A DNA stretch of 64,000 nt from Candidatus Chlorohelix allophototropha. Its GTDB lineage: Bacteria; Chloroflexota; Chloroflexia; Chloroheliales; Chloroheliaceae. This document shows, piece after piece, positions 6,838-63,838 of this stretch. Numbering within the stretch: position 1 is the stretch's first letter; each line of letters opens with the position of its first letter. Under the pieces are notes generated by a model. It searched no databases. It worked only from the letters and a program-made list of their open reading frames with translations, and was not told the DNA's origin. The stretch spans positions 310,001 through 374,000 of the forward strand of contig NZ_CP128399.1 in assembly GCF_030389965.1 (NCBI RefSeq). The letters are read 5' to 3'. Made by a program: the position numbers and the translations under genes.

Positions 6838-6856
6838 TTCTCTGACCAATTTCCCA

Positions 6857-6884: not shown

Positions 6885-6886
6885 GA

Positions 6887-6919
6887 AATCCGGTTCAGGT
6901 GAGCCGGATTTTTTAATTT
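6887..6919 (+). terminator. Hairpin with U-tract
   Basis: AATCCGG (6887-6893) pairs with CCGGATT (6904-6910), followed by TTTTAATTT. It may end the recombinase transcript. Because it lies just after the promoter-like TATAAT, it would sit at the 5' end of a YqeY transcript. Confidence 0.65.
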
Positions 6920-6938
6920 CTAAGGAGAGATGCTAACA

Positions 6939-7394: not shown

Positions 7395-7437
7395 AAAGCC
7401 TGGCGGGCTGCTTCTGGGCAGTTTCGAGGAGGCGCTT

Positions 7438-8037: not shown

Positions 8038-8071
8038 AGCTTCAGAATCAAGGTGACAAAGGGAAAAGCCG

Positions 8072-8884
8072 GTGGGCGAAATCTGGGATGAACTGGTAAA
8101 GTATTTTACAACTGGAAAATCGGGCAACTCGCTGGTGGACATCCTGCTGTCAATATTTGTGTTTTTTTTCTGGTTATTGTTGCTACTGTGGTTAGGTCAT
8201 ATCTCACGGCGTGCCCTTCAGAAATTTGCCGTCCGCAATAGCCGCAATCCCAATTTGGGAGTGTTGCTGGGCAACATCGCCTACATGTCGTTCCTTACGC
8301 TTGCACTCCTCTTAGCTATAACTTTTTTGACCGGAGCTTCGATCAACAATATATTTACCTTTTTGGGCTTTGTCGGCGCAGGTCTTGGTATTGCTCTGCG
8401 CGATGTAATATTAAGCATTATCGCGGGAATCTGGATATTGCTGGAAAAGCCTTTCAAGATTGGGGATATTATCAAGGTAAAAGAGGTAGAAGGGCGTGTA
8501 ACCGGCATTCATATTCGCACCACCCATCTGAGGTCTCTTACCGATATACCCTTGATAATCCCTAACTTTATTCTTTTTTCAGAAATTGTCACCAATCAGT
8601 CTGATGGGGATAAAAAGCAGGTAATCTTGCGGCTTATGTTGCCGGTTACCACTTCATATGAGGATTTAACGGCGCGAGTTAAAGAGGCAGTTCAAAAACT
8701 TGAAAAAGTAGATGAGTATAGTCGGGGCGATCCAGTGCTTTATCTAGAAAGAATCCGGGGTGATAGGACGCTGATTAGAGTTGAGCTTCCGGTTTCCTAT
8801 ACCACCGACCCACAATTTGGTACACAGGCTGGATATGCAATCAGACAACTTTTGCCGGAAGCGGAAATACTTTCAATTGAATAG
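8072..8884 (+). CDS. Small-conductance mechanosensitive channel, MscS family
   Basis: 270 residues with three N-terminal membrane helices. The pore-lining helix reads 'FLGFVGAGLGIALRDVI' and is followed by the MscS beta domain with 'PFKIGDIIKV' and 'GRVTGIHIRTTHLR'. It would open on membrane tension and release solutes during osmotic downshock. The start is GTG 8072. It follows the lipoprotein gene and is followed 14 bases later by nadD. Confidence 0.92.
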   Translation: MGEIWDELVKYFTTGKSGNSLVDILLSIFVFFFWLLLLLWLGHISRRALQKFAVRNSRNPNLGVLLGNIAYMSFLTLALLLAITFLTGASINNIFTFLGFVGAGLGIALRDVILSIIAGIWILLEKPFKIGDIIKVKEVEGRVTGIHIRTTHLRSLTDIPLIIPNFILFSEIVTNQSDGDKKQVILRLMLPVTTSYEDLTARVKEAVQKLEKVDEYSRGDPVLYLERIRGDRTLIRVELPVSYTTDPQFGTQAGYAIRQLLPEAEILSIE

Positions 8885-8898
8885 AGAGGCAGAGATTA

Positions 8899-9513
8899 TT
8901 GCAGCGAATCGGCATAATCGGCGGCACTTTTGACCCGATCCATACCGGGCATTTGATTATAGCGCAGGAAGCCGCTTGGCGGATTGGGTTAGATAAGGTC
9001 TTATTTGTACCGGCGGGCAATCCACCGCATAAACGCAATCAGCAGGTTACGGAGGCGTATCACCGCCTTGAAATGGTGCGGTTGGCTATCGAAGGAAATC
9101 CACTTTTTGAGCTTTCTCTGGTGGATGCTGAACGGCTTGGCTATTCTTATACCGCCGATATGCTACAAGAACTCCGCCTTGAGATCAGCGATTCCGAACT
9201 GTACTTTATTATCGGTGCAGATGCTGCCTCCGAATTGGTAAATTGGTACAAACCGGAAAAAGTGCTGGCACTGGCTAACTTGGCGGTGGTGAGTCGTCCC
9301 GGTTATAGTCTTAATCTTGATGATTTAAAAGAACGCTTTCCTGAGATTGAAAGCCGCATGGTGTTAATCGATTCTGCTATGATACAATTGGCGGCAAACC
9401 AGATTCGCCAGTATGTGCAGCAAGGTGAGCCGATTCGTTATCTTGTCCCGCCTTCGGTAGAAGCCTATATTTACAAGGAGCGTCTCTACTCTCCGCCTGA
9501 GAGTTCAAAATAA
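8899..9513 (+). CDS. nadD: Nicotinate-nucleotide adenylyltransferase
   Basis: 204 residues. It adenylates nicotinate mononucleotide in NAD synthesis. The nucleotidyltransferase signature 'GGTFDPIHTGH' is at residues 8-18, with 'PAGNPPHK' and 'FIIGADAASEL' downstream. The usual C-terminal ST-x-IR motif is changed to 'LAANQIR', a modest deviation. The start is TTG 8899 with GAGAGG about 9 bases upstream. Confidence 0.94.
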   Translation: MQRIGIIGGTFDPIHTGHLIIAQEAAWRIGLDKVLFVPAGNPPHKRNQQVTEAYHRLEMVRLAIEGNPLFELSLVDAERLGYSYTADMLQELRLEISDSELYFIIGADAASELVNWYKPEKVLALANLAVVSRPGYSLNLDDLKERFPEIESRMVLIDSAMIQLAANQIRQYVQQGEPIRYLVPPSVEAYIYKERLYSPPESSK

Positions 9514-9524
9514 AGAGGTATAAT

Positions 9525-10949
9525 GTGATTTCAAATAGATTTAAGCCTATGGCATTAATTCTGGCGCTATTTGCTATCATTAATTTGCTGGTAGCCTGTG
9601 GCAACGAAGCCATTACTACAATTACGCCAGCCACAACTACTTCCACAACTCTTGCCACTACTAGCGCTTCTACTACTGCTGCGACAACGCCGCTTCAAAC
9701 CAGCGCCACGACCGCTACTACTGCTGCAACTACTGTGGTGTCAACCACGCCCGCAATAATCGCTTCTAAGGTAGCAACCAGTGCGCAACCTACGCCCACA
9801 ATCGGAAATGTTTATCCTTCCGGTCCTGCCCCAACTGCGGCTACACCCACGGGTGGTTTAGTGTCGGTGCAATTGCAAATACCTGAGCAATTACGTAAGC
9901 GCGGTTTTACTGTCTCCCACACCTTAAATTTACCCGCCGGGTTTTCCGCTTCACTTTACGCCTTGCTGGATGAAGGGGTACGCTTTATGACCCTCAGCCC
10001 GGATGGGGTAGTGTTTGTCAGCGAAATGGGTAGCGGTCAGGTGGTGTTGTTAAAGGATAACAACGGCGTGGCGGAACGGGTCAGTTTCGCTGTTGGGTTG
10101 GATGCGCCGCATGGTTTGGCATTCCATGTCAGCAATGGTATTACCTACTTATACGTGGCGGAAATGACTCGCGTGGTGCGGTTCGCATATCAACCCGGTC
10201 AACAACGCGCCGATAAAAAAGAAACCATCGTTACCGGAATACCGGGTGGGGGTAATCATCGCACTCGCACAATTGTGTTCGGCAAGGACGGCAAGATGTA
10301 TCTTTCAGTGGGTAGCAGTTGCAACGTGTGCGAGGAATCTGACCAACGCCGCGGTTCGGTGCTACAATTTAACGATGACGGTACTAACGGGCGTATATTT
10401 TCCACAGGACTACGCAATGGGGTTGGTCTGGTGGTGAATCCGTTTACAGGCGAACTTTGGGAAACTGAAAATGGGCGTGATAGTCTCGGCGACAATATAC
10501 CTCCCGAAGAAATAAATATTCTGACGGATGGCGGACATTACGGCTGGCCCTATTGCTATAGCAACGGCGTGTGGGATGGCAATTTTGGTAAGCGCGATCA
10601 GGCGTTTTGCAACACTACCATTAAGCCTGTCTTGCCAATGCAGGCACACAGCGCGCCACTTGGAATAGATATTTACACTGGAAAACAGTTCCCGGTGGAT
10701 TATATGGGCGATGCCTTTGTAGGCTTTCACGGCTCATGGAATCGTAACGAAAAGACTGGCTATAAAGTGGTGCGGTTGAGGGTTAAAGATGGTCGTCCGG
10801 TAAGCTATGAGGATTTTGCTACCGGGTGGTTGGTAAATGGACAAGCTTGGGGTCGCCCGGTAATGCCGATGATGGCGGCAGACGGCAGCCTTTTGCTTAG
10901 CGATGATATGGCGAATGCGGTTTACAGGATTACATATACCCGGCAGTAA
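9525..10949 (+). CDS. PQQ-type sugar (glucose/sorbosone) dehydrogenase-like lipoprotein
   Basis: 474 residues: a type II signal peptide with lipobox 'LLVAC', a Thr/Ser/Ala-rich linker of about 80 residues, then a six-bladed beta-propeller of the GSDH family. Propeller hallmarks are 'PHGLAFH', 'GGNHRTRTI', 'LYLSVGSSCNVC'-like sequence, 'LRNGVGLVVNP' and 'HYGWPYCY'. Members oxidise sugars with PQQ, but many homologues have no proven substrate. The start is GTG 9525, since the overlapping ATG runs into a stop. The protein would face the outside of the membrane. Confidence 0.86.
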   Translation: MISNRFKPMALILALFAIINLLVACGNEAITTITPATTTSTTLATTSASTTAATTPLQTSATTATTAATTVVSTTPAIIASKVATSAQPTPTIGNVYPSGPAPTAATPTGGLVSVQLQIPEQLRKRGFTVSHTLNLPAGFSASLYALLDEGVRFMTLSPDGVVFVSEMGSGQVVLLKDNNGVAERVSFAVGLDAPHGLAFHVSNGITYLYVAEMTRVVRFAYQPGQQRADKKETIVTGIPGGGNHRTRTIVFGKDGKMYLSVGSSCNVCEESDQRRGSVLQFNDDGTNGRIFSTGLRNGVGLVVNPFTGELWETENGRDSLGDNIPPEEINILTDGGHYGWPYCYSNGVWDGNFGKRDQAFCNTTIKPVLPMQAHSAPLGIDIYTGKQFPVDYMGDAFVGFHGSWNRNEKTGYKVVRLRVKDGRPVSYEDFATGWLVNGQAWGRPVMPMMAADGSLLLSDDMANAVYRITYTRQ

Positions 10950-10987
10950 GTATGCCACCAACCACAACGCTCAGGAGGAAACTGGAA

Positions 10988-11725
10988 ATGACAATTAGAG
11001 CGGTGTTGTTAGACCTTGGAGATACCCTGATAAGCGGCAATATAACCAGCGGGGATACCGAAACGATCTGGGAGGAAGTTTATTGTACCCTGATTAATCC
11101 CTGTCACGATTCTTCTATACCTTCACTCCCTACCATACGTGCTGCTATCAAAGAGCATGTACATAACCAAATGGCGCAAGTTTGGAAGTATAAAATCGAA
11201 AAAGAACAAGATGCGCTGGAAATGTACAATATTGCTTTTGCGGCGACAGGGTTTGAAGTGGATACTTGCTTTATTCACCGGGTACTGGAGTTGGAACATA
11301 AACTACTATATAGGCATCTGGTGCGAGTCGGTCCTACCGTTTTTTCCACGCTACAGCTCTTGCGAGAACGGGGCTATTTGCTAGGATTATGCTCTAATTT
11401 CTGCAACCTGACCGAAGTGGTATATGAGAGCTTGCGAGAAGTAAAGTTGCTTGAGCAATTCGATCAGACTGCGGTTTCATGTGAAGTAGGCTGGCGCAAA
11501 CCTTCTCCCCGTATCTATGCTGCCATTTGCGAAAGACTGGCAGTTGCGCCGGAAGAGTGCCTATTTGTGGGTGACAGACTAATTGAGGATGTAAAAGGTC
11601 CGCAGGAATATGGCATGCGAGCTATCCTGACGCATGAGTTCAGACAAGAAGACCCTACCCCTGAGATACAGCCCTTTGCAGTGATTACTCGACTGGATCA
11701 ACTTCTTGCACAGCTTGAGGAATGA
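10988..11725 (+). CDS. HAD-family hydrolase
   Basis: 245 residues. Motif I is 'LLDLGDTL', with Gly where the second Asp of phosphatases often sits. Motif II is in 'LGLCSNF', motif III is the Lys of 'EVGWRKPSPRIY', and motif IV is 'FVGDRLIEDVKG'. These place it in the haloacid dehalogenase-like subfamily I. The substrate is unknown. I use ATG 10988 because AGGAGG is 9 bases before it; the longer frame from 10952 would start without a good ribosome site. Confidence 0.85.
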   Translation: MTIRAVLLDLGDTLISGNITSGDTETIWEEVYCTLINPCHDSSIPSLPTIRAAIKEHVHNQMAQVWKYKIEKEQDALEMYNIAFAATGFEVDTCFIHRVLELEHKLLYRHLVRVGPTVFSTLQLLRERGYLLGLCSNFCNLTEVVYESLREVKLLEQFDQTAVSCEVGWRKPSPRIYAAICERLAVAPEECLFVGDRLIEDVKGPQEYGMRAILTHEFRQEDPTPEIQPFAVITRLDQLLAQLEE

Positions 11726-11750
11726 CAGCTTTTACCGCGTTTGTTATAAT
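11722..11750 (+). promoter_or_regulatory. Promoter of the thiolase gene
   Basis: ATGACA (11722-11727), 17 bases, TATAAT (11745-11750), overlapping the end of the HAD gene. Confidence 0.6.
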
Positions 11751-11817
11751 AAAATTATTATAGTGCACAGTAAGAAGTAGTGTATCCCTATTCAAGCATA
11801 TAAAGGAGTTTGCGAAG

Positions 11818-13011
11818 ATGGCTCAGAACAAGAACGATGCAGTTATCGTAAGCGGGGTGCGCACCCCAATTGGCAAGTTTGGCGGCACTTTGGCAGATAC
11901 TCCCGCCAGCAAATTGGGCGCTATTGCGATTTCAGAGGCGTTGCGCCGCGCCGATATCAAGCCAGATCAGATTAGCGAAGTAATAATGGGAAACGTTTTG
12001 CAAGCCGGTCAGGGCATGAACCCGGCTCGTCAAGCTACTCTGAAAGCCGGATTGCCCGTAACCGTTCCCGCTTTGAGTATTAATAAAGTCTGCGGTAGCG
12101 GCATGAAAGCGGTTATTTTAGCGGCTCAGGCGGTGCAATTGGGCGATGCCGATATAGTAGTAGCGGGTGGTTTTGAGAATATGAACCAAGCCCCTTACCT
12201 ATTGCTTAAAGCCCGTAACGGCTATCGCATGGGTAATGGTGAAATCATTGACTCAATGGTCAATGACGGTCTGTGGGATGTATTCGAAAATTATCACATG
12301 GGTATTACCGCCGAGAATGTAGCCAAAGAATATGACATTTCTCGTCAAGAACAGGATGAATTTGCCTTGCGCAGCCAACAAAAGGCAGCGGCGGCTATCG
12401 CGGCAGGTTATTTTAAGGCTGAAATCGTGCCAGTAGAAATCAAGGCTAAAAAAGAAACCGTCCAGTTCGATACTGACGAGGGTGTACGCGGCGATACTAC
12501 TCTTGAAGGTCTTACCAAGCTGAAACCGGCATTTCAACCGAATGGCGGTACTGTAACGGCGGGTAATGCCAGCAGCATAAATGATGGGGCTGCCGCATTG
12601 GTAATAATGAGCCGCGCACGCGCCGAGGAATTGGGTTTGAAGCCACTGGCGACAATTCGCGGTTATGCCAGCGCCGGGGTTGAGCCTCGCGTTATGGGCA
12701 TCGGACCCGTTCCTGCCAGCAAGAAAGCCCTTGAGAAAGCCGGACTGACCGCTTCGGATATCGAACTGGTAGAAGCCAACGAAGCTTTTGCTGCACAGGC
12801 TTGTGCCGTTGGTAAAGGACTAGGCTTGAACGGTGACATCGTGAACGTTAGCGGTGGCGCGATTGCATTGGGTCACCCGATTGGGGCGAGCGGCGCACGT
12901 ATTTTGGTTACCTTGCTTTACGGCTTACAGCGTTTGGGTAAGCGCACCGGTCTTGCTACTCTCTGCATCGGTGGTGGTCAAGGCATTGCGGTTGTAGTCG
13001 AACGCGAGTAA
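11818..13011 (+). CDS. Acetyl-CoA C-acetyltransferase (thiolase)
   Basis: 397 residues of thiolase II type. It catalyses reversible condensation of two acetyl-CoA to acetoacetyl-CoA, or the last step of beta-oxidation. The acyl-accepting Cys is in '[11 protein letters not shown]', the catalytic His in '[11 protein letters not shown]' and the second Cys in 'LCIGGGQG'. AAGGAG precedes ATG 11818. It has its own promoter and terminator, so it is probably a single-gene unit. Polyhydroxyalkanoate or fatty-acid genes are not adjacent. Confidence 0.95.
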
Positions 13012-13029
13012 TTCTTTTAGACAATGTGA

Positions 13030-13069
13030 GGGATGCGGGATAGTTTTCATCCCCATCCCTTTTTCTTTT
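13030..13069 (+). terminator. Terminator after thiolase
   Basis: GGGATGCGGGAT pairs with ATCCCCATCCC, followed by TTTTTCTTTT. Confidence 0.8.
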
Positions 13070-13097
13070 GACTTTCCATTTGTGACTCTGAAAAACT

Positions 13098-13625
13098 ATG
13101 ACTTCATCAAGAACAGAACTTTCTGACATTCTCGAACCGGGGATAAAGCTGTTAATAGTGGGCTTTAACCCCTCGCTGGTATCGTGGGATAAAGGGCATC
13201 ACTACGCCAACCCGGTCAACAACTTTTACCGCTTGTTGTATCAGTCGGGGCTGACTCCGCGCCTGCTCAAGCCGGATGAGGATGGCATGTTACCGCAATA
13301 CGGTATCGGGCTGACCAATTTTGTGCTACATATCCCCTCTGCCAACGAGAGTAAAGTACCAACTTCGGTGTATCGCGCCGGGATTGAAGGGTTGGACGAA
13401 AAAGTTAAACGCTATAGCCCCAAACTGATATGCTTTAACGGTATGAAGCTGTATAGCTATTATTTCAATAAGAAATTGCCGGACTTTGGTTTGCAGCAAG
13501 ATACGGTGGCGGGTAAGCCTCTTTTTGTTACGCCAAGTAGTAGCGGTGCAGCAAATATGTATTTTGCCCGTAGGCAAGAGCTATATCATGAGATGAAAGA
13601 ACTGCTGGACAGCTTTGAGGAATAA
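13098..13625 (+). CDS. mug: G/U(T)-mismatch uracil-DNA glycosylase, MUG/TDG family
   Basis: 175 residues. The family motif 'VGFNPSLVSWDKGHHYANPVN' region (first motif near residues 22-42) contains the catalytic Asn, and 'YGIGLTNFV' and 'VTPSSSGAANM' match the DNA-intercalation loop. It would remove uracil or related lesions from mispairs. The ATG lies about 28 bases after the thiolase terminator. It is convergent with folE2. Confidence 0.88.
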   Translation: MTSSRTELSDILEPGIKLLIVGFNPSLVSWDKGHHYANPVNNFYRLLYQSGLTPRLLKPDEDGMLPQYGIGLTNFVLHIPSANESKVPTSVYRAGIEGLDEKVKRYSPKLICFNGMKLYSYYFNKKLPDFGLQQDTVAGKPLFVTPSSSGAANMYFARRQELYHEMKELLDSFEE

Positions 13626-13653
13626 AAAAGCCCCCTCAAGAGGCTGAAGGGGC
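13623..13653 (-). terminator. Terminator of folE2
   Basis: GCCCC (13630-13634) and GGGGC (13649-13653) with an inner CCTC/GAGG stem. On the minus strand it is followed by TTTTTTATT. Confidence 0.75.
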
Positions 13654-13659
13654 GAAAAA

Positions 13660-14472
13660 TTATTGAGCTTGTGGACGCTTGTCCATTTCGATAAAGGCGT
13701 AGGCATTGTGATTGTGAATGCTTTCGTCGTTATCGCTTTCCACCGTGAACCAGTCAATACGGGGGTCATCCAATAAAACCTGAGTTAAATCACGTACCAC
13801 ATCTTCAACGAATTTTGGATTCTCATAGGCTCGCTCGGTTACGTACTTCTCGTCCACGCGCTTAATCAGTGAATAAACCTCGCAACTACCACTCTGTTCG
13901 GCGATACTAATCAGGTCTTCCAACCAGACTAATGCGTTAGAGCGAATTTTAATGGTCACAAAACTTCGCTGGTTATGTGCGCCATAATCGCTGATCTCTT
14001 TCGAGCAAGGACATAAAGTTGTAACCGGAACTTCTACCATCGTGATAAGGTCGGTGTTACCATCGGGACCCTGCATTGCTGAGAATCCGCATTTATACTC
14101 CATCAAGCTTTTGATACGGCTGACAGGAGCTTCTTTGGTCAGAAAATAAGGAAAAGTTACCTCAAAATGCGCTTCAGCTGCGGTCAGCTTTTCACGCATA
14201 GTAGCGAGGATTGTTTCTATATTGGCTGGTTCGATTTCGCCTTCAAACTGGTTAAGAATTGCGACAAAGCGACTCAAATGTGTACCTTTGAATTCTTTAG
14301 GGAGGGACACATACATATTGATGTCGCCAACGGTGTGTTGCAAACCGTTGTCGCGCTCTTTCACAGCAATGGGAAATCGAATATCCTTGATACCGACTTT
14401 ATTGATGGCGATGTTTCTTTTATCAGGTCTGCTCTGAATGTCAGGTAGAACCCGATCATTTATTTGAAGCAT
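13660..14472 (-). CDS. folE2: GTP cyclohydrolase FolE2 (type IB)
   Basis: 270 residues. It converts GTP to 7,8-dihydroneopterin triphosphate for folate and possibly modified nucleosides. The family signature with the active-site Cys, 'TLCPCSKEISDYGAHNQRS', is intact, as are 'EYKCGFSA' and the C-terminal 'HNHNAYA'. FolE2 is the version that does not depend strictly on zinc. Start ATG 14472. It stands alone with its own terminator. The gap to 14660 shows no clear zinc-regulator site. Confidence 0.94.
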   Translation of the reverse strand: MLQINDRVLPDIQSRPDKRNIAINKVGIKDIRFPIAVKERDNGLQHTVGDINMYVSLPKEFKGTHLSRFVAILNQFEGEIEPANIETILATMREKLTAAEAHFEVTFPYFLTKEAPVSRIKSLMEYKCGFSAMQGPDGNTDLITMVEVPVTTLCPCSKEISDYGAHNQRSFVTIKIRSNALVWLEDLISIAEQSGSCEVYSLIKRVDEKYVTERAYENPKFVEDVVRDLTQVLLDDPRIDWFTVESDNDESIHNHNAYAFIEMDKRPQAQ

Positions 14473-14659
14473 TTATGTTAATATCCTTCCTAAAAGCTAC
14501 TCGGCGCAGGTGGGAACAAAGCCCTGAAACCAACATGCAAAACCGTGCAGCCCCATAAAAATAAATCTGCGTGTTAATTCTATTCCAATCAATTAGCAAC
14601 TGCAACGGTTAATAAGCAAACTACCCTTTATATATCCTTATTTATAACTTCTTATCAGG

Positions 14660-14694
14660 GAAAAATAAAAATCGGCGGTTGTTTAGACCGCCGA
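14660..14694 (-). terminator. Terminator of the 14722-15213 gene
   Basis: CGGCGGT and ACCGCCG flank an 8-base loop (14672-14694). On the minus strand the stem is followed by ATTTTTATTTTT. Confidence 0.85.
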
Positions 14695-14721
14695 TAGCGA
14701 AGGAGGAGAAAAGCATATTAT

Positions 14722-15213
14722 TTAGGAGAGAGCTTCATTTTTGAATTGGTAAACCCCAACCGGGTTTTTAGTTTCCGGGTGATTCGTAGCTTTAAAGGCG
14801 AACATAGCCAGCGAAGAAGGCAACGCCCACGCAATCCCGGTCAATAAGCCCATCTGAGCATAAGCAACGCCACGAGTGAAAATTCCGGTAATCAGTTCTA
14901 TAAAATCTACCGATGGTGCTGCATGCACCGCATTATTCAAAATTTGAGCGCCTATCACGCAACCACTCCATATCCCGAAGGCTGCAACTGCAAAGAAAAG
15001 AGGCGCTAACAGCAACCAAACCACCGGGTGAAGGTTAAACTCAAGCGCTTTGCGCGTAAAATATCGCGCGACCAATGCTGCTACCAGAATAATAAAGAGC
15101 GGTGCAATCGCATTGTAGTTGAAACTGCCTACAATATACAGATAAGCTGCGGTTATAAGTGCTCCGGTTGCGGTGAAAGCGATATTGATTATTTGATGAC
15201 TGCGACTATTCAT
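14722..15213 (-). CDS. Four-helix membrane protein, unknown
   Basis: 163 residues with hydrophobic segments at about 10-30, 36-50, 62-90 and 118-140, and a short polar C-terminus. I do not recognise a family. It has its own terminator. The upstream intergenic region is shared with the zinc-ribbon/RDD genes transcribed the other way. Confidence 0.65.
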   Translation of the reverse strand: MNSRSHQIINIAFTATGALITAAYLYIVGSFNYNAIAPLFIILVAALVARYFTRKALEFNLHPVVWLLLAPLFFAVAAFGIWSGCVIGAQILNNAVHAAPSVDFIELITGIFTRGVAYAQMGLLTGIAWALPSSLAMFAFKATNHPETKNPVGVYQFKNEALS

Positions 15214-25150: not shown

Positions 25151-27112
25151 TTACTTTTTCACGCCACCTATACGGTAGGTGAAGTATTCCGGGTCGGTAA
25201 GGTCGGTTCGGAAGGCGCTATTTCCACTGGATAGGAGGTTGCGCAGATATGCCCGGCTGAAAGGTCGCTCGATATTGACCAGCGGATACAGGTCATTCAA
25301 AGATGCACGCAGCAAATCCGCTTGCTTTACGCCCACAAGTTCAAAGGCGTTAGCCACCAGAAAGTCGGTTTTCTTGCGGTCTGATTCTTCGAGACGTTTC
25401 TGGTTATCAAGTTTGCTGAAGCGTTCGGGCGTAAGAATTTCGTTCTCATTTACCTGGCATTCAAAACCAATGGTTCGGTAAACGAACTTCTGCCGTCTCT
25501 CATCGTAAAACAACAGACGACGTTCTTGTTCTTGGCTACTAACCTCGTACTCAATTATAAAGTGATTAGTGCGAATGCCCTGAGTTACCAGCAATTTTGC
25601 ACCCGGTATCAGGTTGTTAGCATAGAAGTCTTCCAACCCGGCAATCCACCCGCCGCGAGTACCACTTGGAAAGTGCAACTCGGCAGTGTAGGTAAATTCC
25701 AGTTGGGGCGCTTCAAGGCGCAGAATGACCAACTTCTGTTCTTCTAATAAACCGGACGGGAATAAACTACGGGCGTTTAAGTCATAGGGCAGCAAACCAT
25801 TTTCGTACTCGTAAAAAGTAATGGTATGCTCCCATTGTTTGCGTCCTTTTACGGTAGTTAGAACAATCGGGTCATTTAAGTTTGTATCTTCGAGGAACTT
25901 ATAGTCTAACCCGATTTCGGATGCCTTGCGTTTGCCTGGACCAAGGGCGTTCATACCCGGTGCAGTCCAAATGCGATCGTCTTCCGCGCCAACAAACTCG
26001 AAATCTTTCTTTTCGCGAGAAAGGCGGAAGTTTAAGGAGAAGCGTTTCGCTTCGTAATCCTGATCATTATTGCGTTTGTTAAAGACATCCGTCAATATAG
26101 CGGTGTCGGTAACAGGCCCGCCAACTTCATTCATATAATCGCGAATGCGGCGGAAATCCCCTTTGGTCAACCTTTCGGTTTGATCTTCGAGGAACCAATC
26201 ATTGGCAAAGTTGATAAAGCGCAAATCCTGATTCAAGCTGGTAGCCAAAGCAGAAGAGAAATAGTCACCATATGTATCCAGAATTTCACTGGCAGATTTG
26301 CTCAAATCGACTTCAACGCCTTCGTCCAGCGTCACAATAACAGGTCCTGCTGGCGCAGCAACCGGTTTAGGCGCGGCTACAACAGGTTCAGCGACAGGAG
26401 GCTTGGCTTCAATCGGTTTAGGTGCGGCTACAACAGGCTCAACGACAGGAGGCTTGGCTTCAATCGGCTTAGGTGCGGCTACAACAGGCTCAACGACAGG
26501 AGGCTTGGCTTCAATCGGTTTAGGCGCGGCTACAACAGGCTCAACGACAGGAGGCTTGGCTTCAATCGGTTTAGGCGCGGCTACAACAGGCTCTTTTGCT
26601 GCAATTTTCTGCTCGGCATTGGCTGTTTTTGGTTCTGCCGCAAACGGTAAAGGCAGCGCAAATGTAGAAGTCGTTTCTTGGCGGGCGGGTACATCAACCG
26701 CTTTAGCATGTAATTCTTCATCAGACATAGGCACTACCGCTTTGGCTCCTTCAAAAAGGCGAGTTTTAAAGCTGTGATGGTCATATACAACCGGCCCGGG
26801 AGTAGGAGCAATCCCTAATTTAGTGGTTTTGAATGTAATTTGCCCTTCTTCGTTTTCTTCTCGTAAGAAAACGCCAGGGTTAGCGGATAGAGCTTTGTCA
26901 ATAATGGGCGCTAGCGCATCAATGTTGTCAAGCCCCTTATATTTTTCATCGGCAAAAAATTGAGCCAGATTCTCAAGAGACTGGCGGATATTGGCGCGGG
27001 CGGACATAGTCACACCTTGCATTCGCATCAGCGCAAAAACTTCCTGAGCAAGGCTTTGTTCTTCGGGAGTACCTGCGAGATCCAATTTGGGCGGCTGATA
27101 TAGCTGTGCCAT
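25151..27112 (-). CDS. Large protein with Pro-rich 17-residue repeats, unknown
   Basis: 653 residues, with no signal peptide or membrane helix. Residues 1-165 form a mostly helical acidic region. Residues about 172-250 are four to five copies of a 17-residue unit like 'EPVVAAPKPIEAKPPVV', and the remaining 400 residues look globular with many aromatic and charged residues. I do not recognise the domain. A very similar composition ('APKPVEAPKP', 'PVVEA') occurs in the protein at 53951-56359 of the csm locus, raising a possible functional link. AAGGAGAGG precedes ATG 27112. A small gene lies just upstream. Confidence 0.8.
   Translation of the reverse strand: MAQLYQPPKLDLAGTPEEQSLAQEVFALMRMQGVTMSARANIRQSLENLAQFFADEKYKGLDNIDALAPIIDKALSANPGVFLREENEEGQITFKTTKLGIAPTPGPVVYDHHSFKTRLFEGAKAVVPMSDEELHAKAVDVPARQETTSTFALPLPFAAEPKTANAEQKIAAKEPVVAAPKPIEAKPPVVEPVVAAPKPIEAKPPVVEPVVAAPKPIEAKPPVVEPVVAAPKPIEAKPPVAEPVVAAPKPVAAPAGPVIVTLDEGVEVDLSKSASEILDTYGDYFSSALATSLNQDLRFINFANDWFLEDQTERLTKGDFRRIRDYMNEVGGPVTDTAILTDVFNKRNNDQDYEAKRFSLNFRLSREKKDFEFVGAEDDRIWTAPGMNALGPGKRKASEIGLDYKFLEDTNLNDPIVLTTVKGRKQWEHTITFYEYENGLLPYDLNARSLFPSGLLEEQKLVILRLEAPQLEFTYTAELHFPSGTRGGWIAGLEDFYANNLIPGAKLLVTQGIRTNHFIIEYEVSSQEQERRLLFYDERRQKFVYRTIGFECQVNENEILTPERFSKLDNQKRLEESDRKKTDFLVANAFELVGVKQADLLRASLNDLYPLVNIERPFSRAYLRNLLSSGNSAFRTDLTDPEYFTYRIGGVKK
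26361..26595 (-). repeat. 51-bp coding tandem repeat
   Basis: Four to five nearly identical 51-base units encoding the 17-residue proline-rich repeat of the 653-residue protein. Their high identity suggests recent expansion or homogenisation. Confidence 0.85.
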
Positions 27113-28188: not shown

Positions 28189-28629
28189 TTACTTCGCTTG
28201 ATATAGTTCCAGAATTGCATTCAGAATACTTTGCGGGTCAGGCGGAGAACCTGCCAGATAAGCATCAATTTTCCTGCCTACCGATAGCTTTAAATCGGTT
28301 TCTTTAACCGATTCTGAAAGCTGGATTGGTCCAGCAACTCCATAACAACTGGCAAAGGGCGCACCGCTGATGGTATCAGAACCTAACACCAGCAATTTTA
28401 CATCCGGCGAGAGGCTTTCCACTAAACGCATGGCATGTTCAGCTGCTTTCACTGTGCCTATTCCTGTAATAACAAGTAGGTCGCATTGTTTGGGACTGGA
28501 AGTTAAATAGATACCGAAATGTCCGGCATTGTAAGGTGGCACAAAAATAGACTCAAACTCCAACTGCGTAGCGTTGGAGCCTCCAATATTGAGTGGGAAA
28601 ACTGCAACCGATAGCCTGTTTTTTTTCAT
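28189..28629 (-). CDS. NuoB/hydrogenase small-subunit homologue lacking cluster cysteines
   Basis: 146 residues from ATG 28629, which overlaps the preceding stop as ATGA; a longer frame to 28677 exists but would lie inside that gene. The fold is that of NuoB and group-4 hydrogenase small subunits: 'CDLLVITGIGTVKAAEHAMRLVE', 'KLLVLGSDTISGAPF' and 'DAYLAGSPPDPQSILNAIL'. All expected [4Fe-4S] ligands are replaced: the N-terminal CxxC by Ser18 and Thr21, the GxC motif by Asp/Ile in 'GSDTISGA', and GCPP by 'GSPP'. It therefore cannot hold the usual proximal cluster. The partner subunits are upstream. Confidence 0.8.
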   Translation of the reverse strand: MKKNRLSVAVFPLNIGGSNATQLEFESIFVPPYNAGHFGIYLTSSPKQCDLLVITGIGTVKAAEHAMRLVESLSPDVKLLVLGSDTISGAPFASCYGVAGPIQLSESVKETDLKLSVGRKIDAYLAGSPPDPQSILNAILELYQAK

Positions 28630-30014
28630 GATGCTTTCAGCGCACTCCCCAACCAATCCAACGGTAATGCCGACCATATGCCAAAAAATATCATTACAGC
28701 AATCAGCAACAAGATTATTGCGCTTGTACCCATAGGCTCGGCTTTTGTTTTTAGTCCAGGTATGCCTCGTCCCATAAACTGATTATGGAAAAATCGCAAA
28801 TAGGCAAGTAACCACAAAGTGATGGCAAGACCTCCAAGTAATGCCCAACCGATCCCCTCTTGCGCGGCACTTTGCAGAATTAGATATTTGCCCGGAAACC
28901 CACTGATTAGGGGTGCGCCCGCCAATGCCAGCATCCCGAAGCTCAATCCTACAGTTGCCACCGGCATATGCCTTCCCAACCCGCTAAGCCCCGTCATCAT
29001 CCGTTCGTAATTGCAATAGTATATTACTGCCAACGATGTGAAAATGAGCAATTGTGCCAAAGCAAAATTCGCCGCTTCAAAAACTGCTCCGCGTAACCCG
29101 GTAGTGTGGGGTGTTGCCAATCCGAATAGTACGAGGCTCAAATTTCCGCTTCCGGTATAAGCCAGCATTTTACCAAAACTGCTCTGTGCCATACCAAATA
29201 ACCCTGATAAAACTGCTCCTGACATGCCAAGCGCCATGACAGGCAAAGTCTGGCTAGTATTATTTAGCAAAAGGGTGGGATTTTGTTGTAAAAAATCTAC
29301 TAGAAATATAACTGCCGCACCGTTTATAAGTCCTAGCACCAGCCAACTTGCTAAGGCAGGAGCATCTTCAATTACTTGTGGTAGCCAAAGGTTAAAGGGG
29401 AAAACACCAAAACGCAAAGCGAATCCGGTAATTGCAAGCGCCACGATTACTTTAATCAAGCCGATTTGTTGTGGGTCGAGGCGAACTCGCTCCAAAAAAA
29501 CCTGTGCCACAAACAAAAGCAAGCCAAATAGCACCGTGACTATCAAGTAACGTACCGCGCTTTTAACCACCCGTACAAAGCGTTCTTCGTCTTCTGCACC
29601 TACATCCACAACTGAAATAATGCTAAAAAACTCGGCGGCTACAAAGCAAAGGGTTACTACAAATACGTTATTAATAAAAAGCGCTGCATTAATTGTGCCG
29701 CAAACTGTGAGTGTTACCGGAGCATAACGTCCACTTTTCAGGTTATCGGTAAGATACGCTACCAGCAGGCTGATGCTCGCTAGGATAAAGAGGAATGTTA
29801 AAAATAGTTGGGCTATAGGAGTGAAGAAGAAAGCATTATCAGCGTTTGTCGGGTTTTCAATCCACACCATTACAGTACTTGCCACTAATCCGGCTACCGC
29901 TATAGTCACTGCTACTTTATAGCTCCAGCGATATTTTTCAGCCGGAAATAATGCCTCAATCAGCACTAGAAACAGTGTAGCTGCAAAAGGTAGTACGATA
30001 ACCGTAAAAGGCAC
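28626..30014 (-). CDS. NuoN/HyfF-like antiporter-type membrane subunit
   Basis: 462 residues, about 13-14 membrane helices, of the Mrp/NuoL-M-N family that forms proton- or sodium-conducting channels. The conserved TM5 Glu is in 'FVAAEFFSIISVV'. The central helix carries 'FALRFGVFPFNLWLPQVIEDAPA', with Arg near the position of the usual Lys, and another Lys is in 'SSFGKMLAYTGSGN'. It starts with GTG 30014 directly after the previous stop. It is one of three channel-type subunits in this operon. Confidence 0.85.
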   Translation of the reverse strand: MPFTVIVLPFAATLFLVLIEALFPAEKYRWSYKVAVTIAVAGLVASTVMVWIENPTNADNAFFFTPIAQLFLTFLFILASISLLVAYLTDNLKSGRYAPVTLTVCGTINAALFINNVFVVTLCFVAAEFFSIISVVDVGAEDEERFVRVVKSAVRYLIVTVLFGLLLFVAQVFLERVRLDPQQIGLIKVIVALAITGFALRFGVFPFNLWLPQVIEDAPALASWLVLGLINGAAVIFLVDFLQQNPTLLLNNTSQTLPVMALGMSGAVLSGLFGMAQSSFGKMLAYTGSGNLSLVLFGLATPHTTGLRGAVFEAANFALAQLLIFTSLAVIYYCNYERMMTGLSGLGRHMPVATVGLSFGMLALAGAPLISGFPGKYLILQSAAQEGIGWALLGGLAITLWLLAYLRFFHNQFMGRGIPGLKTKAEPMGTSAIILLLIAVMIFFGIWSALPLDWLGSALKAS

Positions 30015-30776
30015 TTATTTGACCGCCTTTCTTCCGGCTGTGAAAGCATCACTCAGGTTTAGCGTTTTAAGTTTATTATAGAAAAGTATGGCAAGGTATG
30101 AAATCAGAAGCGCCAGCAAAATGGTGATTGCCGCGCTAAAGCCCAACACCAAAGGATTATCACCACTGCGTAATAGTGAGTAGAGTAGGTCTGCACCGTT
30201 TAAGGCAGTTAACAAGCCAATTCCCAGTTTGAGAATATCGCTGCCCACTACCATAATGGTAACACCAATCGAGAATGTCCAGTAGAAGGCGAAATCGCCC
30301 AAAAAATTGCCGGAGAAAGGCAACAACGTTGCAAATGCATAGGTGGCTACTGCTGCAATAATGCTTGTACCTATTGGCAGCATATAATCAATATAGCGAA
30401 AACGGCTAAGTTGTTCTTTTTGCTGGCGGCGAAAAAAGCGGCGCAAACCCCCGGTTCCGGCTGCATCTTCCTCAGCCTCTTGCTGCTTCAGCCTGCGTCG
30501 CTCGATTATAATTGCATACCCGGTTAGAAAAATTATTAACGCCGCAATAACCCCCGACATAGTTTTGAGAAAAACTGCCAGTGGTATTGAACCGAGCATT
30601 ACACGCTGGGCAGTTCCATTCTGATCGTTAGCTACTACTGCCACCACAAAGTATTGAAAGACCAGCGCCGGGGTTATAATTACCCAGTCTTTGTACACTG
30701 CCAACGCTACACAGGATGCTACCAGTAGCCCTATATAGAAAATATAATTACCAGCGGTAAGTGTCAGAAAATCCAC
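30015..30776 (-). CDS. NuoK/HyfE-like membrane subunit
   Basis: 253 residues with about six membrane helices and a basic cytoplasmic loop ('RRLKQQEAEEDAAG', residues 96-110). The C-terminal half resembles NuoK and HyfE ('LKLGIGLLTALNGADLLYSLL'). It begins with GTG 30776, preceded by AAGGTGA, four bases after the NuoL-like stop. The family assignment is weaker than for its neighbours because HyfE-type proteins are poorly conserved. Confidence 0.65.
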   Translation of the reverse strand: MDFLTLTAGNYIFYIGLLVASCVALAVYKDWVIITPALVFQYFVVAVVANDQNGTAQRVMLGSIPLAVFLKTMSGVIAALIIFLTGYAIIIERRRLKQQEAEEDAAGTGGLRRFFRRQQKEQLSRFRYIDYMLPIGTSIIAAVATYAFATLLPFSGNFLGDFAFYWTFSIGVTIMVVGSDILKLGIGLLTALNGADLLYSLLRSGDNPLVLGFSAAITILLALLISYLAILFYNKLKTLNLSDAFTAGRKAVK

Positions 30777-30780
30777 AAAA

Positions 30781-32787
30781 TCACCTTGTTAGCAGGAAGA
30801 TAAAAAGGATTACCACCAAAGCCGCCAGCGCCGCATAAAATTTCTCGGTCATCCATTCCAGCACCCACACAATAAAACCTAGAATTTTAAGACCGATTCC
30901 ACCAAACCAACCTCCCAAAAAGCCGGTATCGAATATGCGTATTATATAGCGGGCAGTTTGCTGGAAAGAGCTAAAATAATCATTAATGCTCAGGCGAGGT
31001 GGGATTTCACCACGCGGGGCGGTAGGTTTGATGGCTTCCGTGCCGATTTTGAAAAAGTCATCATCAAACCCGGCAGGAATGCTTTCCTTGTAAATTTTCA
31101 GGCTCTTTTTTTTGCTCTCGCGTCGGCGTTGCGCTTCTTCTTCTTCCGCCCCAAAAAGTAAACCTCCCTGATAGGCAGGGGAGGCATGTACACTGCCAAA
31201 CTTGAGGTAAATTCCAAATAATACCAGTGCGCCTATTACTACTATTAGCCCCAACCATCCGGTTGAAATAAAATTAGCGTTTACTGTGGGTGTCGTTTCT
31301 GCGCTCATCTTGGTTGGGAGTTGCTCTACCCAACCAGAAGCTAGAGATGGAGAAAAACCGCTTATTATCGCGAAGAGTCCGAAAACGCTCGCCATTCCCG
31401 GTGGTATCCATGCTACGAGATTGCGCCCATCCACCGTCTGTCTTTCTACGGTCAGAAAGGTTATCAGCCCATTTGAAAGCCCAATTGCCAGTATCATCAA
31501 GCCAATCAACGCTACCAATAAGTAAAAGCCATAGCCCTGTGTTGCTAGATTCTCCAGAGTGGTATAGCGCGAAATATAGGCAGGAGTGAGCGGTAAACCC
31601 ACCGCTACTGCCATTCCAAGCAAATAAAGCGCTATCAATGCGCCTCGGTAGCGGGGTGAACGTTCTAACGGTTTGGGAGTTTCTCGTCCTTTTTTCAACA
31701 AAGGCGTATTTTCAATTTGGAGCAAATCTCCGCATAAAAACAGGATTGGAACCGATAAGCTAAGGGCGAAAAATTGCCATGCCGCAGCGTTGAACTGTTT
31801 TAGACCTAGCGCAATTATCACAAAACCAAACTGGGCGGAAGCCGCATAAGCTGCTTTGCCTATCAGGTCAGCTTCTTTGGCTACCATCCAACCGCAAGCC
31901 AATACAGAAATAGCTCCTACGGGTAATAATAACGGTGAGGCTGCTTTAAATAAGTCTAATCTGTCACCGGCTATGCTATTCAACCGTGCCGGTAAATAGA
32001 GCGCTAACGGTAAGATACCACCTGCCATTAGCAGTGCAAATGCGCCTCCCGGCAAGTTTTTAAGGGAACCAGACCAAGCTTGGAAGGGGAATTGCGCGGT
32101 TTTAATCATCGCCCCGACCCATACCAGTACAAAGAAAAGTGTTTCGATGGAGGACGGTGAGATTGCAGTATATTGGGTGATGCCACCGTTGCGTGAAACT
32201 ATCACCAATAAAGGCGCAAGAATAACAAACCCACCCGCAACGCTGACAACATAGGCATAGAAACTGGAACGCGAGGAACTTGCCCCACGCAAACCCGGTC
32301 CTGCCAGCAAATAGAGCCATAAGCCTAAAGCTTCTAGCCAACCGTATAACCAAATGAGGTCAGAAGAATAGAAAGCAGCTAAGGCTGAACCTTCTACCAG
32401 AAATAGGAGACCATATAGTCTGCCGCCGGTTATTGCTTCGCCTTCTTCGGCGGAAGGTTGCCGAGCTACTAGATAGATGATAACCAAGAAGCCCAAAATC
32501 GCCAGTGGAAGGGTGAAGAAGTAGGAGAGTATATCGGCGCGAAAGGCAAATTGTACTTTTGCTTCCGGCAGGGGCGACCAGCTAAACAATGTAGCGGAGG
32601 GATTGCCAGAAGCGACTCCAAAACCAAGCGCTATTTGCCCTGCCAGTGTAACCATACTAACCAATACCGCCAGCGAGGCAAGCGCGGCTTGTTCTGTTTC
32701 AAAAAGCCAGCCGAAGAAGAAGAAAGCAACGCCTACTATGAGCGGTAAAATGATGCTTATAGGTAACAAAATGTCAAAGGGATTCAA
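30781..32787 (-). CDS. NuoL/HyfB-like antiporter-type membrane subunit
   Basis: 668 residues, about 15-16 membrane helices. Family hallmarks are the TM5 Glu in 'YGWLEALGLWLYLL', the central Lys motif 'GAMIKTAQFPFQAWSGSL' and 'KEADLIGKAAYAASAQFGF'. The C-terminus has a polar stretch and a final helix, like the piston-helix end of NuoL but shorter. The start is TTG 32787 with AAAGG six bases before it. It would couple the soluble subunits to ion pumping. Confidence 0.87.
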   Translation of the reverse strand: MNPFDILLPISIILPLIVGVAFFFFGWLFETEQAALASLAVLVSMVTLAGQIALGFGVASGNPSATLFSWSPLPEAKVQFAFRADILSYFFTLPLAILGFLVIIYLVARQPSAEEGEAITGGRLYGLLFLVEGSALAAFYSSDLIWLYGWLEALGLWLYLLAGPGLRGASSSRSSFYAYVVSVAGGFVILAPLLVIVSRNGGITQYTAISPSSIETLFFVLVWVGAMIKTAQFPFQAWSGSLKNLPGGAFALLMAGGILPLALYLPARLNSIAGDRLDLFKAASPLLLPVGAISVLACGWMVAKEADLIGKAAYAASAQFGFVIIALGLKQFNAAAWQFFALSLSVPILFLCGDLLQIENTPLLKKGRETPKPLERSPRYRGALIALYLLGMAVAVGLPLTPAYISRYTTLENLATQGYGFYLLVALIGLMILAIGLSNGLITFLTVERQTVDGRNLVAWIPPGMASVFGLFAIISGFSPSLASGWVEQLPTKMSAETTPTVNANFISTGWLGLIVVIGALVLFGIYLKFGSVHASPAYQGGLLFGAEEEEAQRRRESKKKSLKIYKESIPAGFDDDFFKIGTEAIKPTAPRGEIPPRLSINDYFSSFQQTARYIIRIFDTGFLGGWFGGIGLKILGFIVWVLEWMTEKFYAALAALVVILFIFLLTR

Positions 32788-32790
32788 GTG

Positions 32791-33870
32791 TTACCTTTCT
32801 CCACATGCCATGCAATAATCCAGCGATACAAGCAATGCTCCCGCATCCTCAACGTCCTGACCGAGCAACGAGAAGGGTAAAGCAGGCAGGTTACACATTG
32901 TAGGGGGGCGTAGCTTTAGCCTTGCTATACAGCCTTTCTCATCCGAAGCAACATAACAAAAAAGTGCGCCTCTCGGTGATTCTACCAGAGAATACACTTC
33001 TTTGTCGGGGGGGAAAGCTGCGGGTAGAAGCTGTTCATCCTTCAGGTTGCCTTCTGGCATTTTAAGAAGTGCTTGTCCTGCTAGGTTAAGACTTTCTAGA
33101 GCTTCTAGCAAGCGTACTACCAGCCGCGCATAAAGACTACCACTGTTCTGAGTTACTACTCGGAAATCAAGCTCGCCATATGCAGCGTAAGGTTCTGATC
33201 GGCGGATGTCATCAGGAATATCACTGGCACGCGCGACAGGACCAACCAACCCGTATTCATCAGCCAGTTCTGCTGATATTATTCCGATATATTCGGTGCG
33301 GTGTTCGAGTTGGTGGTTTTCCAGCAATTGGCTAACCGATTCATACACATTCTTACGTAAACGCTCAACCGCGGCTTGAAATTCCATCGGTAATGGTAAC
33401 GTGCGCATGATTCCACCGGGGATTGTGAAGGTATCATGTATGCGGTTGCCGGAAGCAGCCATTAACTGGCGCACTCCTTCGGCTTCTTCCTCAAGACGGC
33501 TGGCAATCAGGCGTTTTCCAAGCATTCGGAGGGTACGTGCAGAATTGGCAAGATGGCTGGCGGCGCGTTCGAGTTCTGCCATTACGGTGCGGATATAGCT
33601 GGCGCGAAGTGGGGGATTAAGATCGGCGAGCTTTTCAAGGGCTAATGTTACTGCCAAAGTATTGGCATAAGAGCATTTTCCGCAAATTTGAGCAACCACG
33701 CCGGGCAATTGATGCGGCAAAAGGTGAGTCAATAAACCCTCAACCCCACGATGGTTAAAGCCAAGCTCAATTTCGACCTTTTCTATTTTAGTTCCGTGTA
33801 TTTCCAGCTTATAACAAACAGGTTCATCTAGCGCCGGATGCCACGGACCAATAGGTAACAGGTAGGGCAT
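32791..33870 (-). CDS. Group-4 [NiFe]-hydrogenase-like large subunit (NuoD homologue)
   Basis: 359 residues. 'PIGPWHPALDEP' and 'ELGFNHRGVEGLL' place it with NuoD and group-4 hydrogenase large subunits. Unlike NuoD it keeps both metal-binding pairs: Cys63/Cys66 in 'AQICGKCSYAN' and Cys353/Cys356 in the final 'DYCMACGER'. The first motif is altered from ERxCGxCxxxH, with Ala-Gln replacing Glu-Arg and Asn70 replacing His, and Tyr replaces Pro in the second. Whether NiFe(CN)2CO is inserted is open. No hydrogenase maturation gene is in the window. GAGGA precedes ATG 33870. Confidence 0.85.
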   Translation of the reverse strand: MPYLLPIGPWHPALDEPVCYKLEIHGTKIEKVEIELGFNHRGVEGLLTHLLPHQLPGVVAQICGKCSYANTLAVTLALEKLADLNPPLRASYIRTVMAELERAASHLANSARTLRMLGKRLIASRLEEEAEGVRQLMAASGNRIHDTFTIPGGIMRTLPLPMEFQAAVERLRKNVYESVSQLLENHQLEHRTEYIGIISAELADEYGLVGPVARASDIPDDIRRSEPYAAYGELDFRVVTQNSGSLYARLVVRLLEALESLNLAGQALLKMPEGNLKDEQLLPAAFPPDKEVYSLVESPRGALFCYVASDEKGCIARLKLRPPTMCNLPALPFSLLGQDVEDAGALLVSLDYCMACGER

Positions 33871-62367: not shown

Positions 62368-62724
62368 ATGCTTGAAGGGTATGTGCCCATACTAATTCTA
62401 TTAATTTTTGCTGTGTTAGCTTCGTTCCTTTTCAGTGGAATAGCGTTGCTGCAGAACGCAAAAAACCCCAGTGAAGCCAAAACATCGACTTACGAGGGTG
62501 GTGTGCCTTTGCTACAGCAAGTTCCGAATCGTTTCCCCGTTAAATTTCTGGAAGTGGCGATGCTCTTCCTTATTTTTGACATTGAAACGGTGGCTTTCTT
62601 TCCGTGGGCGGTACTGCTAAACCAACTTAAGGTATTTGGTTTGGTTGAGATGGGCTTATTTTTACTGGTATTGGGCGTGGGTTATATCTATTTGCTCAAA
62701 AAGGGCGCATTCAAATGGGATTAA
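62368..62724 (+). CDS. nuoA: NADH-quinone oxidoreductase subunit A
   Basis: 118 residues, three membrane helices. 'STYEGGVPLLQ' corresponds to the conserved loop and 'FLEVAMLFLIFDIETVAFFPWAV' to the signature second helix with its Asp and Glu. The usual Cys of the loop (YECG) is Gly-Gly here. It begins a nuoABCD run in the canonical order. Confidence 0.95.
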   Translation: MLEGYVPILILLIFAVLASFLFSGIALLQNAKNPSEAKTSTYEGGVPLLQQVPNRFPVKFLEVAMLFLIFDIETVAFFPWAVLLNQLKVFGLVEMGLFLLVLGVGYIYLLKKGAFKWD

Positions 62725-62727
62725 AAA

Positions 62728-63330
62728 ATGGGTAATGAGCTTTATCGTGTTGAAGATTTTTTCACTATAAATGCAACTCGTCCCGGTGATGCTCAATCAA
62801 TTATGAGCGCCTCTCCGGTGGGGGGTATGGTCACTACTACCGTTGATAACTTGGCAAATTGGGGGCGAAAATCCTCTTTATGGCCTGCTCTATTTGGGTT
62901 GGCTTGTTGCGCTATCGAAATGATGGCGACAGGGGGCGCTAGGTTTGATATGGCACGTTTTGGTTCGGAAGTATTCCGAGCTTCCCCACGACAAGCTGAT
63001 TTGATGATTGTGGCGGGGCGTGTTTCTGCTAAGATGGCTCCTGCCGTTCGCCAAATTTACGAACAGATGCCCGGTCCTAAATGGGTAATTGCGATGGGAG
63101 CATGCGCCAGTTGTGGTGGCGTATTCAACAATTATGCTATTGTACAGGGCGTAGATTTGATAGTGCCGGTAGATGTTTATGTGGCAGGTTGTCCACCTAA
63201 TCCCGAAGCGCTATTGGAAGGCTTTCAAATTTTACAGAAAAAAATCATGGCAGGCGTGCCCAATCCACCTGATCCGATGAGTTATGCCCCGGAGGTAGTG
63301 AGTGACCCCAACTTCGGACGAACCCGCTAA
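62728..63330 (+). CDS. nuoB: NADH-quinone oxidoreductase subunit B
   Basis: 200 residues. It carries cluster N2, with all ligands present: the double Cys in '[10 protein letters not shown]', one in '[10 protein letters not shown]' and one in '[11 protein letters not shown]'. It starts three bases after nuoA and overlaps nuoC. It makes a useful internal reference for the cysteine-less homologue at 28189-28629. Confidence 0.97.
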
Positions 63331-63838
63331 CCCGGTTCAAAATGAGGAAAATACTCTCAAGGCAGAGCGTTTTCCAAACGTAAAACGCAGCGAAATGCGA
63401 GCGGCGGATGGTACGCCCACTTTTATTGTACCTGCCGATGAATTGCTGGAAGTATTGCAGTATCTGCGCGATGAAGCCCGCTTTACTATGCTGGAAGATG
63501 TCACGGCGGTAGATTGGAAAAAAGAGCCGCGCTTCCAGCTAGTTTATAATTTATTGTCGCTAGAACGAGCTTCCGTTATCCGAATAAAAGTAAATTTGCC
63601 GGGAGAGAATCCAATCGTATCCAGCGTCACTGCCTTATTTCCGGGCGCTAACTGGTACGAGCGCGAGGTTTTCGACCTATTCGGTATTACTTTTACCGAG
63701 CATCCGGACTTGCGGCGTATAGAAATGCCGGATGATTGGCAAGGTCACCCACTTCGCAAAGATTATCCCATTACGGGACCGCGCCGCCCGGTTATGCCTG
63801 CTAATCAGTTCAGACCGGTCGGCAGAAGTAATTCATAA
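63302..63838 (+). CDS. nuoC: NADH-quinone oxidoreductase subunit C
   Basis: 178 residues of the 30-kDa subunit. Signature '[23 protein letters not shown]' and 'GHPLRKDYP' are present. The start is GTG 63302, overlapping the end of nuoB by 29 bases. It is separate from nuoD, unlike the fused NuoCD of enterobacteria. Confidence 0.95.

Follow-up and report, generated by a model that had tools for sequence, protein, structure and literature searches.

A putative hydrogenase-derived complex of the Chloroheliaceae keeps the Ni/Fe-ligand cysteines of its large subunit and lacks proximal-cluster ligands in its small subunit

In a stretch of 64,000 nucleotides from Candidatus Chlorohelix allophototropha (contig NZ_CP128399.1, positions 310,001 to 374,000; hereafter the window), five open reading frames (ORFs) on the minus strand at 28189-33870 encode hydrogenase- and complex I-like subunits, which we designate by type and in operon order as D, L, K, N and B. 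The large subunit D keeps all four cysteines that serve as Ni/Fe ligands in group 4 [NiFe] hydrogenases, whereas the small subunit B has lost the cysteines expected to hold the proximal [4Fe-4S] cluster. Together with an unlinked gene pair for a divergent NuoH (H) and a NuoI (I), the operon may encode an ion-translocating complex that derives from a hydrogenase and has its metal site off the electron relay, a reading to which we assign a probability of about 0.42.

The operon is as compact as a preliminary description of the window had stated, and its assignment of the five genes to large, NuoL-, NuoK/HyfE-, NuoN-like and small subunits holds. The gaps are 3, 4 and 0 bp, followed by a 4-bp ATGA overlap ahead of B if this gene starts at Met17 (28629), the likely start, which yields a protein of 146 aa. 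The features are as follows.

32791..33870, minus strand: D, large subunit (HycE/MbhL/NuoD-type), 359 aa; Pfam PF00346 (Complex1_49kDa) 6e-48, PF00374 1e-7
33673..33684, minus strand: first Ni/Fe ligand pair of D, C63-G-K-C66; kept in 5/5 family genomes
32803..32814, minus strand: second Ni/Fe ligand pair of D, C353-x-x-C356; kept in 5/5 family genomes
30781..32787, minus strand: L, NuoL/HycC-like antiporter subunit, 668 aa; Pfam PF00361 (Proton_antipo_M) 1.5e-15
30015..30776, minus strand: K, membrane subunit with distant similarity to HyfE in a profile comparison, 253 aa
28626..30014, minus strand: N, NuoN/HyfF-like antiporter subunit, 462 aa; Pfam PF00361 (Proton_antipo_M) 1e-23
28189..28677, minus strand: B, small subunit (NuoB/HycG/MbhJ fold); Pfam PF01058 (Oxidored_q6) 1e-7, phmmer match to MbhJ
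62368..63838, plus strand: first genes (nuoA, nuoB, nuoC) of the canonical nuo operon, given for context; the operon runs past the window end, with nuoD at contig 374 kb

Conservation was assessed in five genomes of the family (f1), the organism's own (G000) and G001-G004; the nearest relative bearing a name is 'Candidatus Chloroheliaceae bacterium L227-5C'. The own genome comprises 6,086,194 bases in five contigs (C1 2,961,161, C2 2,453,413), and five circles of 2.96 Mb, 2.45 Mb, 375 kb, 241 kb and 55 kb have been described for 'Ca. Chlorohelix allophototropha' L227-S17 (PMC10972752). All four cysteines of D (C63/C66 and C353/C356) occur in every one of the family genomes, as a group 4 [NiFe] hydrogenase large subunit should have them, and the RGVE and PRG motifs and the terminal arginine are equally invariant. 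D carries no NuoC domain and ends exactly at the hydrogenase processing site: nothing follows ...DYCMACGER, alignments to MbhL (6cfw_L) and HycE (7z0s_E) reach the last residue, and the extension of E. coli HyfG is absent. The maturation protein HypD is encoded in G000, G001, G003 and G004 and was not found in the fragmented G002. D may still bind a metal through these four cysteines, probably NiFe in genomes that encode Hyp proteins.

The small subunit B, on which the preliminary description made no comment in this respect, has no cysteine at any of the four positions that ligate the proximal cluster (Ser34, Thr37, Asp101 and Ser144 in the window protein). Across the family three or four of the four are gone: in the g2 genomes position 34 is S, position 37 T or S, position 101 D and position 144 S or A, G002 has S/C/E/S with one cysteine left, and B of G001 contains a single Cys, close to the C-terminus. 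With none or one of four ligands in five genomes, B lacks what defines the small subunit of a group 4 [NiFe] hydrogenase, whereas the aligned outgroups and the small subunits of four other genomes (the Roseiflexus-like G047, G043 and G053, and G007) have all four cluster cysteines intact. Misannotation or a frameshift was considered and ruled out by five intact ORFs, low dN/dS and a retained fold; the predicted structure (pLDDT 70) matches NuoB, HycG and MbhJ chains with Foldseek E values of about 1e-8. A literature search, which did not reach the founding survey of energy-converting hydrogenase-related (Ehr) complexes, returned no description of cluster loss from a small subunit with the NiFe cysteines kept. 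In formate hydrogenlyase (FHL) every relay gap is <14 Å, and the proximal cluster of HycG comes last, directly ahead of NiFe (PMC9474812). By this standard the relay from I to D would be broken, because B is without a proximal cluster, and the complex is therefore most likely not a ferredoxin- or formate-linked hydrogenase.

A membrane anchor and a ferredoxin-type subunit for the complex are probably encoded elsewhere on the contig. Genes of the NuoD type and of the NuoH type each number four in the own genome. Complex I sets account for two of either type and an FHL/Hyf-like operon at 1.77 Mb for a third; the remainder are D and H. H lies at 41.5 kb and is directly followed by I, the pair spanning contig positions 40.8-42.6 kb, ~300 kb from the operon. 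Strong matches to H were obtained in 5/5 family genomes, each joined to I and the same downstream genes, while the 56 other genomes of the class that were compared gave marginal matches only (best E 2.7e-5), canonical NuoH where checked. The numbers of D-type and H-type genes balance in G000, G001, G002 and G004, and G003 has one NuoH-like match extra. H resembles the group-4 NuoH of Azospirillum and Anaerolineae (E 8e-51) and complex I NuoH only distantly (6e-7), and in its quinone/E-channel loop it retains several acidic positions that are absent from degenerate NuoH proteins of other Chloroflexia. I matches E. coli HyfH (E 5.6e-22) and has two complete 4Fe-4S motifs as well as the CxxC...CxxC quartet of the HycF/HyfH type, which in HycF binds a peripheral metal (PMC9474812). 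Co-occurrence, gene counting and type thus suggest that H and I belong to the operon's complex and supply in trans, in group-4 form, the NuoH-type anchor and NuoI expected of a group 4 hydrogenase. The preliminary description was right that no NuoH-type gene adjoins the operon, but its view that the complex lacks an anchor would have to be given up, and so would the supposed lack of a NuoI or ferredoxin module. The absence of NuoC, on the other hand, is borne out, with no orphan copy in G000-G003. It is also conceivable that H and I are separate, the operon forming a NuoH-less complex of five subunits while the pair has another role. The distance between the loci and the neighbours of the pair, which are sugar- and glycosyl-modifying genes, point that way; however, the nearly one-to-one NuoD/NuoH tally, the restriction of H to exactly those genomes that carry the operon in this version and the degenerate NuoH found straight after N in related Chloroflexia clusters make such a separation quite unlikely.

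The FHL/Hyf-like operon of the same genome (G000:C1:1762000-1781000, positions 6699-14776 therein) encodes an antiporter subunit, NuoH, HyfE and HyfF, a fused NuoC-large subunit and a fused ferredoxin-small subunit; it has cysteines of the NiFe type.

In the membrane arm, both L and N match Proton_antipo_M, in line with the at least two antiporter-like subunits described previously. L keeps the glutamate of transmembrane helix (TM) 5 (Glu152) and the lysine of TM7 (Lys229) in 5/5 family genomes, with the TM12 lysine replaced by Arg407, while hardly any relative among the Chloroflexia retains the TM5 and TM7 equivalents. In N, the TM7 lysine is replaced by Arg201, that of TM8 is lost and Lys376 is kept. 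K has no Pfam or NCBIfam match and gives at best a marginal full-length match to a single HyfE sequence, but a profile comparison with a broader HyfE alignment reaches 89.6% (E 2e-7, 231 columns); an AlphaFold2 model of K from four sequences (pLDDT 49) was too poor for a structure search. Pairwise dN/dS values among the three g2 genomes (NG86) are low for every gene: D 0.06-0.07, L 0.06-0.10, K 0.02-0.04, N 0.06, B 0.07-0.10, H 0.11-0.14, I 0.13-0.17. With a range of 0.02-0.17 across the seven genes, all are under purifying selection and therefore no part is decaying. A vestigial hydrogenase heading for loss would agree with the independent loss of B, H and ligand residues across the Chloroflexia, but in view of the low dN/dS of every gene, B included, and the retention of D-L-K-N in the Chloroflexia clusters examined it is highly improbable.

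We envisage an architecture like that of a Hyf/FHL-type group-4 [NiFe] hydrogenase, in which D, B and I would form the peripheral arm, H the anchor and L, K and N the pump arm. The metal site of D may be mechanically coupled through H, with its conserved acidic residues, to L, with Glu152 and Lys229. Electrons entering at the two clusters of I would stop short of D, and the D site, through binding, through turnover or through its structural state, could gate H+ or Na+ movement via L and N with no electron transfer through the complex. A true energy-converting hydrogenase is an alternative, with NiFe in D and electrons delivered by a docked small carrier, by a cluster ligated by residues other than cysteine, or by another NuoB-type subunit replacing B. 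Such an enzyme would account for the four cysteines of D, for a C-terminus that ends at Arg and requires no protease, for HypD in 4/5 family genomes and for the retained key residues of H, I and L. However, B has no residue set fit to hold a cluster, the lone Cys of G001 included, and B itself fills the NuoB position as a conserved subunit; moreover, the PF01058 matches seen in the own genome are explained by B, the FHL operon, the pair of nuo operons and further NiFe hydrogenases. We therefore regard a working hydrogenase as unlikely.

Among known systems, Hyf/Hyc (hydrogenase-4/formate hydrogenlyase) offers a counterpart for each of the seven subunits (HyfG for D, HyfI for B, HyfC for H, HyfH for I, HyfB for L, HyfE for K and HyfF for N), with the four NiFe cysteines in D and the extra cysteine quartet of HyfH in I. 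Unlike Hyf/Hyc, the Chlorohelix complex is without a NuoC domain, HyfA/HycB or a C-terminal extension of D, its genes are spread over two loci, and B is without the proximal-cluster cysteines. The preliminary description had likened the gene set to Ehr complexes, group-4-like membrane complexes in which Mrp antiporter-like membrane subunits accompany a large and a small subunit of the hydrogenase type. This likeness stands for the make-up of membrane, large and small subunits, but not for the metal site: in the wording quoted in PMC6349859, which we applied, Ehr complexes are defined by the absence of Ni/Fe-coordinating residues (PMC6349859), whereas here the cluster has been lost from B instead. 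The Ehr label fits poorly, because the four [NiFe]-ligand cysteines are present in 5/5 D sequences and D has a hydrogenase-like C-terminal end. The membrane-bound sulfane sulfur reductase (MBS) of Pyrococcus furiosus is likewise a member of the complex I superfamily derived from a hydrogenase by metal-ligand loss, but its pattern is the reverse of that in D and B: two of the four NiFe cysteines are lost and the proximal cluster is kept as the active site (PMC7684303). Loss of NiFe cysteines with retention of the proximal cluster, as in MBS and complex I, has been read as the evolutionary path (PMC7684303). In contrast to complex I (Nuo), D has the NiFe cysteines and B is without the N2-cluster ligands, and no NADH module was seen, NuoE, F and G being absent from the D-B cluster; the canonical nuo operon noted earlier does begin in the window, and the D-B complex is separate from the cell's complex I. 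An Mrp antiporter does not fit either, since of the Mrp-type subunits only L, K and N types were found in the operon, the MrpA-G set was not matched, and D and B are also encoded. Outside the Chloroflexia, the closest large subunits in named genomes (36-39% identity) and the closest NuoH type occur in group-4 clusters of Azospirillum and Anaerolineae linked to aldehyde ferredoxin oxidoreductase (AOR), but these form a single B-H-I-C-D operon with an intact small subunit and no K. In one strain of Azospirillum lipoferum, group-4-type clusters with AOR, MoaD and HypA lie on two plasmids (L061, L128).

The closest relatives are found within the class. In the large-subunit phylogeny that the preliminary description had called for, the family groups with clusters of other Chloroflexia (support 99/97), apart from the AOR-linked, Ech-like, FHL and NuoD sequences and from the functional group-4 hydrogenases sampled; several long branches leave the exact internal order uncertain. 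The grouping agrees with the D-L-K-N order and the homologous K subunit (E 5e-36) common to both, and in the phylum sample strong K matches occur in families f1, f6, f8, f10 and f11 of the class. Most of these clusters, which include Roseiflexus-, Chloroflexus- and Herpetosiphon-like ones, have the layout D-L-K-N-(B)-degenerate NuoH-ABC-permease. They differ from the Chloroheliaceae operon in having a degenerate NuoH beside N, or none, in the ABC transporter genes of most, in the loss of L pump residues in nearly all and in a small subunit that is intact or absent. Their missing Pfam NuoH match is misleading, because the protein directly after N is a degenerate NuoH (99.1%, E 9e-18 against group-4 NuoH, with no match for N and K controls). 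Missing subunits adjacent in related genomes, which the preliminary description had named as a finding that would count against its view, do therefore exist. In most clusters of the Chloroflexaceae and Roseiflexaceae type, the genes next after the degenerate NuoH encode the ATPase and permease of an ABC transporter (L045, L047, L049, L055, L209). We tentatively take G047 to be Roseiflexus RS-1, G039 C. aurantiacus, G037 Herpetosiphon and G045 Kallotenue. The Chloroflexus- and Herpetosiphon-like genomes have no B gene in the cluster, and the PF01058 genes of G039 and G037 are explained by nuo and NiFe hydrogenases. In G053 the D cysteines are lost and B is intact, while the Chloroheliaceae keep the D cysteines and have lost the B ligands; the redox parts have been shed independently and in different ways among the D-L-K-N clusters.

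The four D cysteines are present in 12/14 sequences from genomes with HypD and in 2/11 from those without, an association that is suggestive only because the lineages are not independent. In HypD-less Chloroflexia the second D cysteine (C66) is replaced by Asp, His or Ser, perhaps because zinc or another simpler metal has taken the place of NiFe. For instance, D of L017-L021, L024 and L028 has Asp or His at this position and keeps the other three cysteines. Such replacements, together with a D-L-K-N core conserved without electron input, would suit a non-redox, gradient-driven enzyme as in DAB or NDH-1MS, in which proton or cation flow through L and N drives a reaction such as CO2 hydration at the D metal site. 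For the Chloroheliaceae we consider this decidedly unlikely, as the four D cysteines are unchanged within the family, no linkage to carbon-fixation genes was noticed, and no likeness to DabA or Cup was seen, though none was specifically sought. Other Chloroflexota carry L-K-N without D, adjoining lgt or recA and with the pump residues mostly gone (L226, L228-L231, L236), so the membrane part can persist without a redox arm. Beside these triads no hidden NuoH or DabA partner was found, the neighbours being Lgt, a PHP-domain polymerase and RecA. A role specific to phototrophy was dropped, as the D clade takes in HypD-less genomes that are presumably those of the non-phototrophic Herpetosiphon. 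Expression of the C. aurantiacus cluster was sought in PMC9316378 and PMC3150298, with no result.

Several observations weigh against an ion-translocating complex with its metal site off the relay. The membership of H and I is argued from co-occurrence, gene counting and type, with no linkage; canonical pump residues are lost from N; and the stand-alone L-K-N triads, mostly without pump residues, make pumping less convincing as a shared function. It would be strange for I to keep both 4Fe-4S sites intact if electrons never pass, and the HypD found in 4/5 family genomes is also required by other NiFe hydrogenases there. A stronger form, in which the complex has kept a hydrogenase-type metal site and ion-translocation coupling, has dispensed with the relay and runs on a non-redox reaction or, driven by the ion gradient, in reverse, is possible but somewhat doubtful. 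If true, it would add a third mode to those of redox-driven pumps and ordinary antiporters, and its origin would run counter to the accepted route toward MBS and complex I, in which NiFe cysteines are lost stepwise. The reverse loss throughout the family would offer a natural test of a membrane arm without an electron wire to the active site. The complex appears to be Chloroflexia-wide and is undescribed in the literature searched; Chloroflexus, Roseiflexus and a phototroph with a type I reaction centre seem to be among its hosts.

Two further ORFs of the window were noted. A 653-aa protein without a Pfam match at 25151-27112 contains a near-perfect tandem repeat (PPVVEPVVAAPKPIEAK), and an 802-aa ORF, likewise without a Pfam match, lies at 53951-56359.

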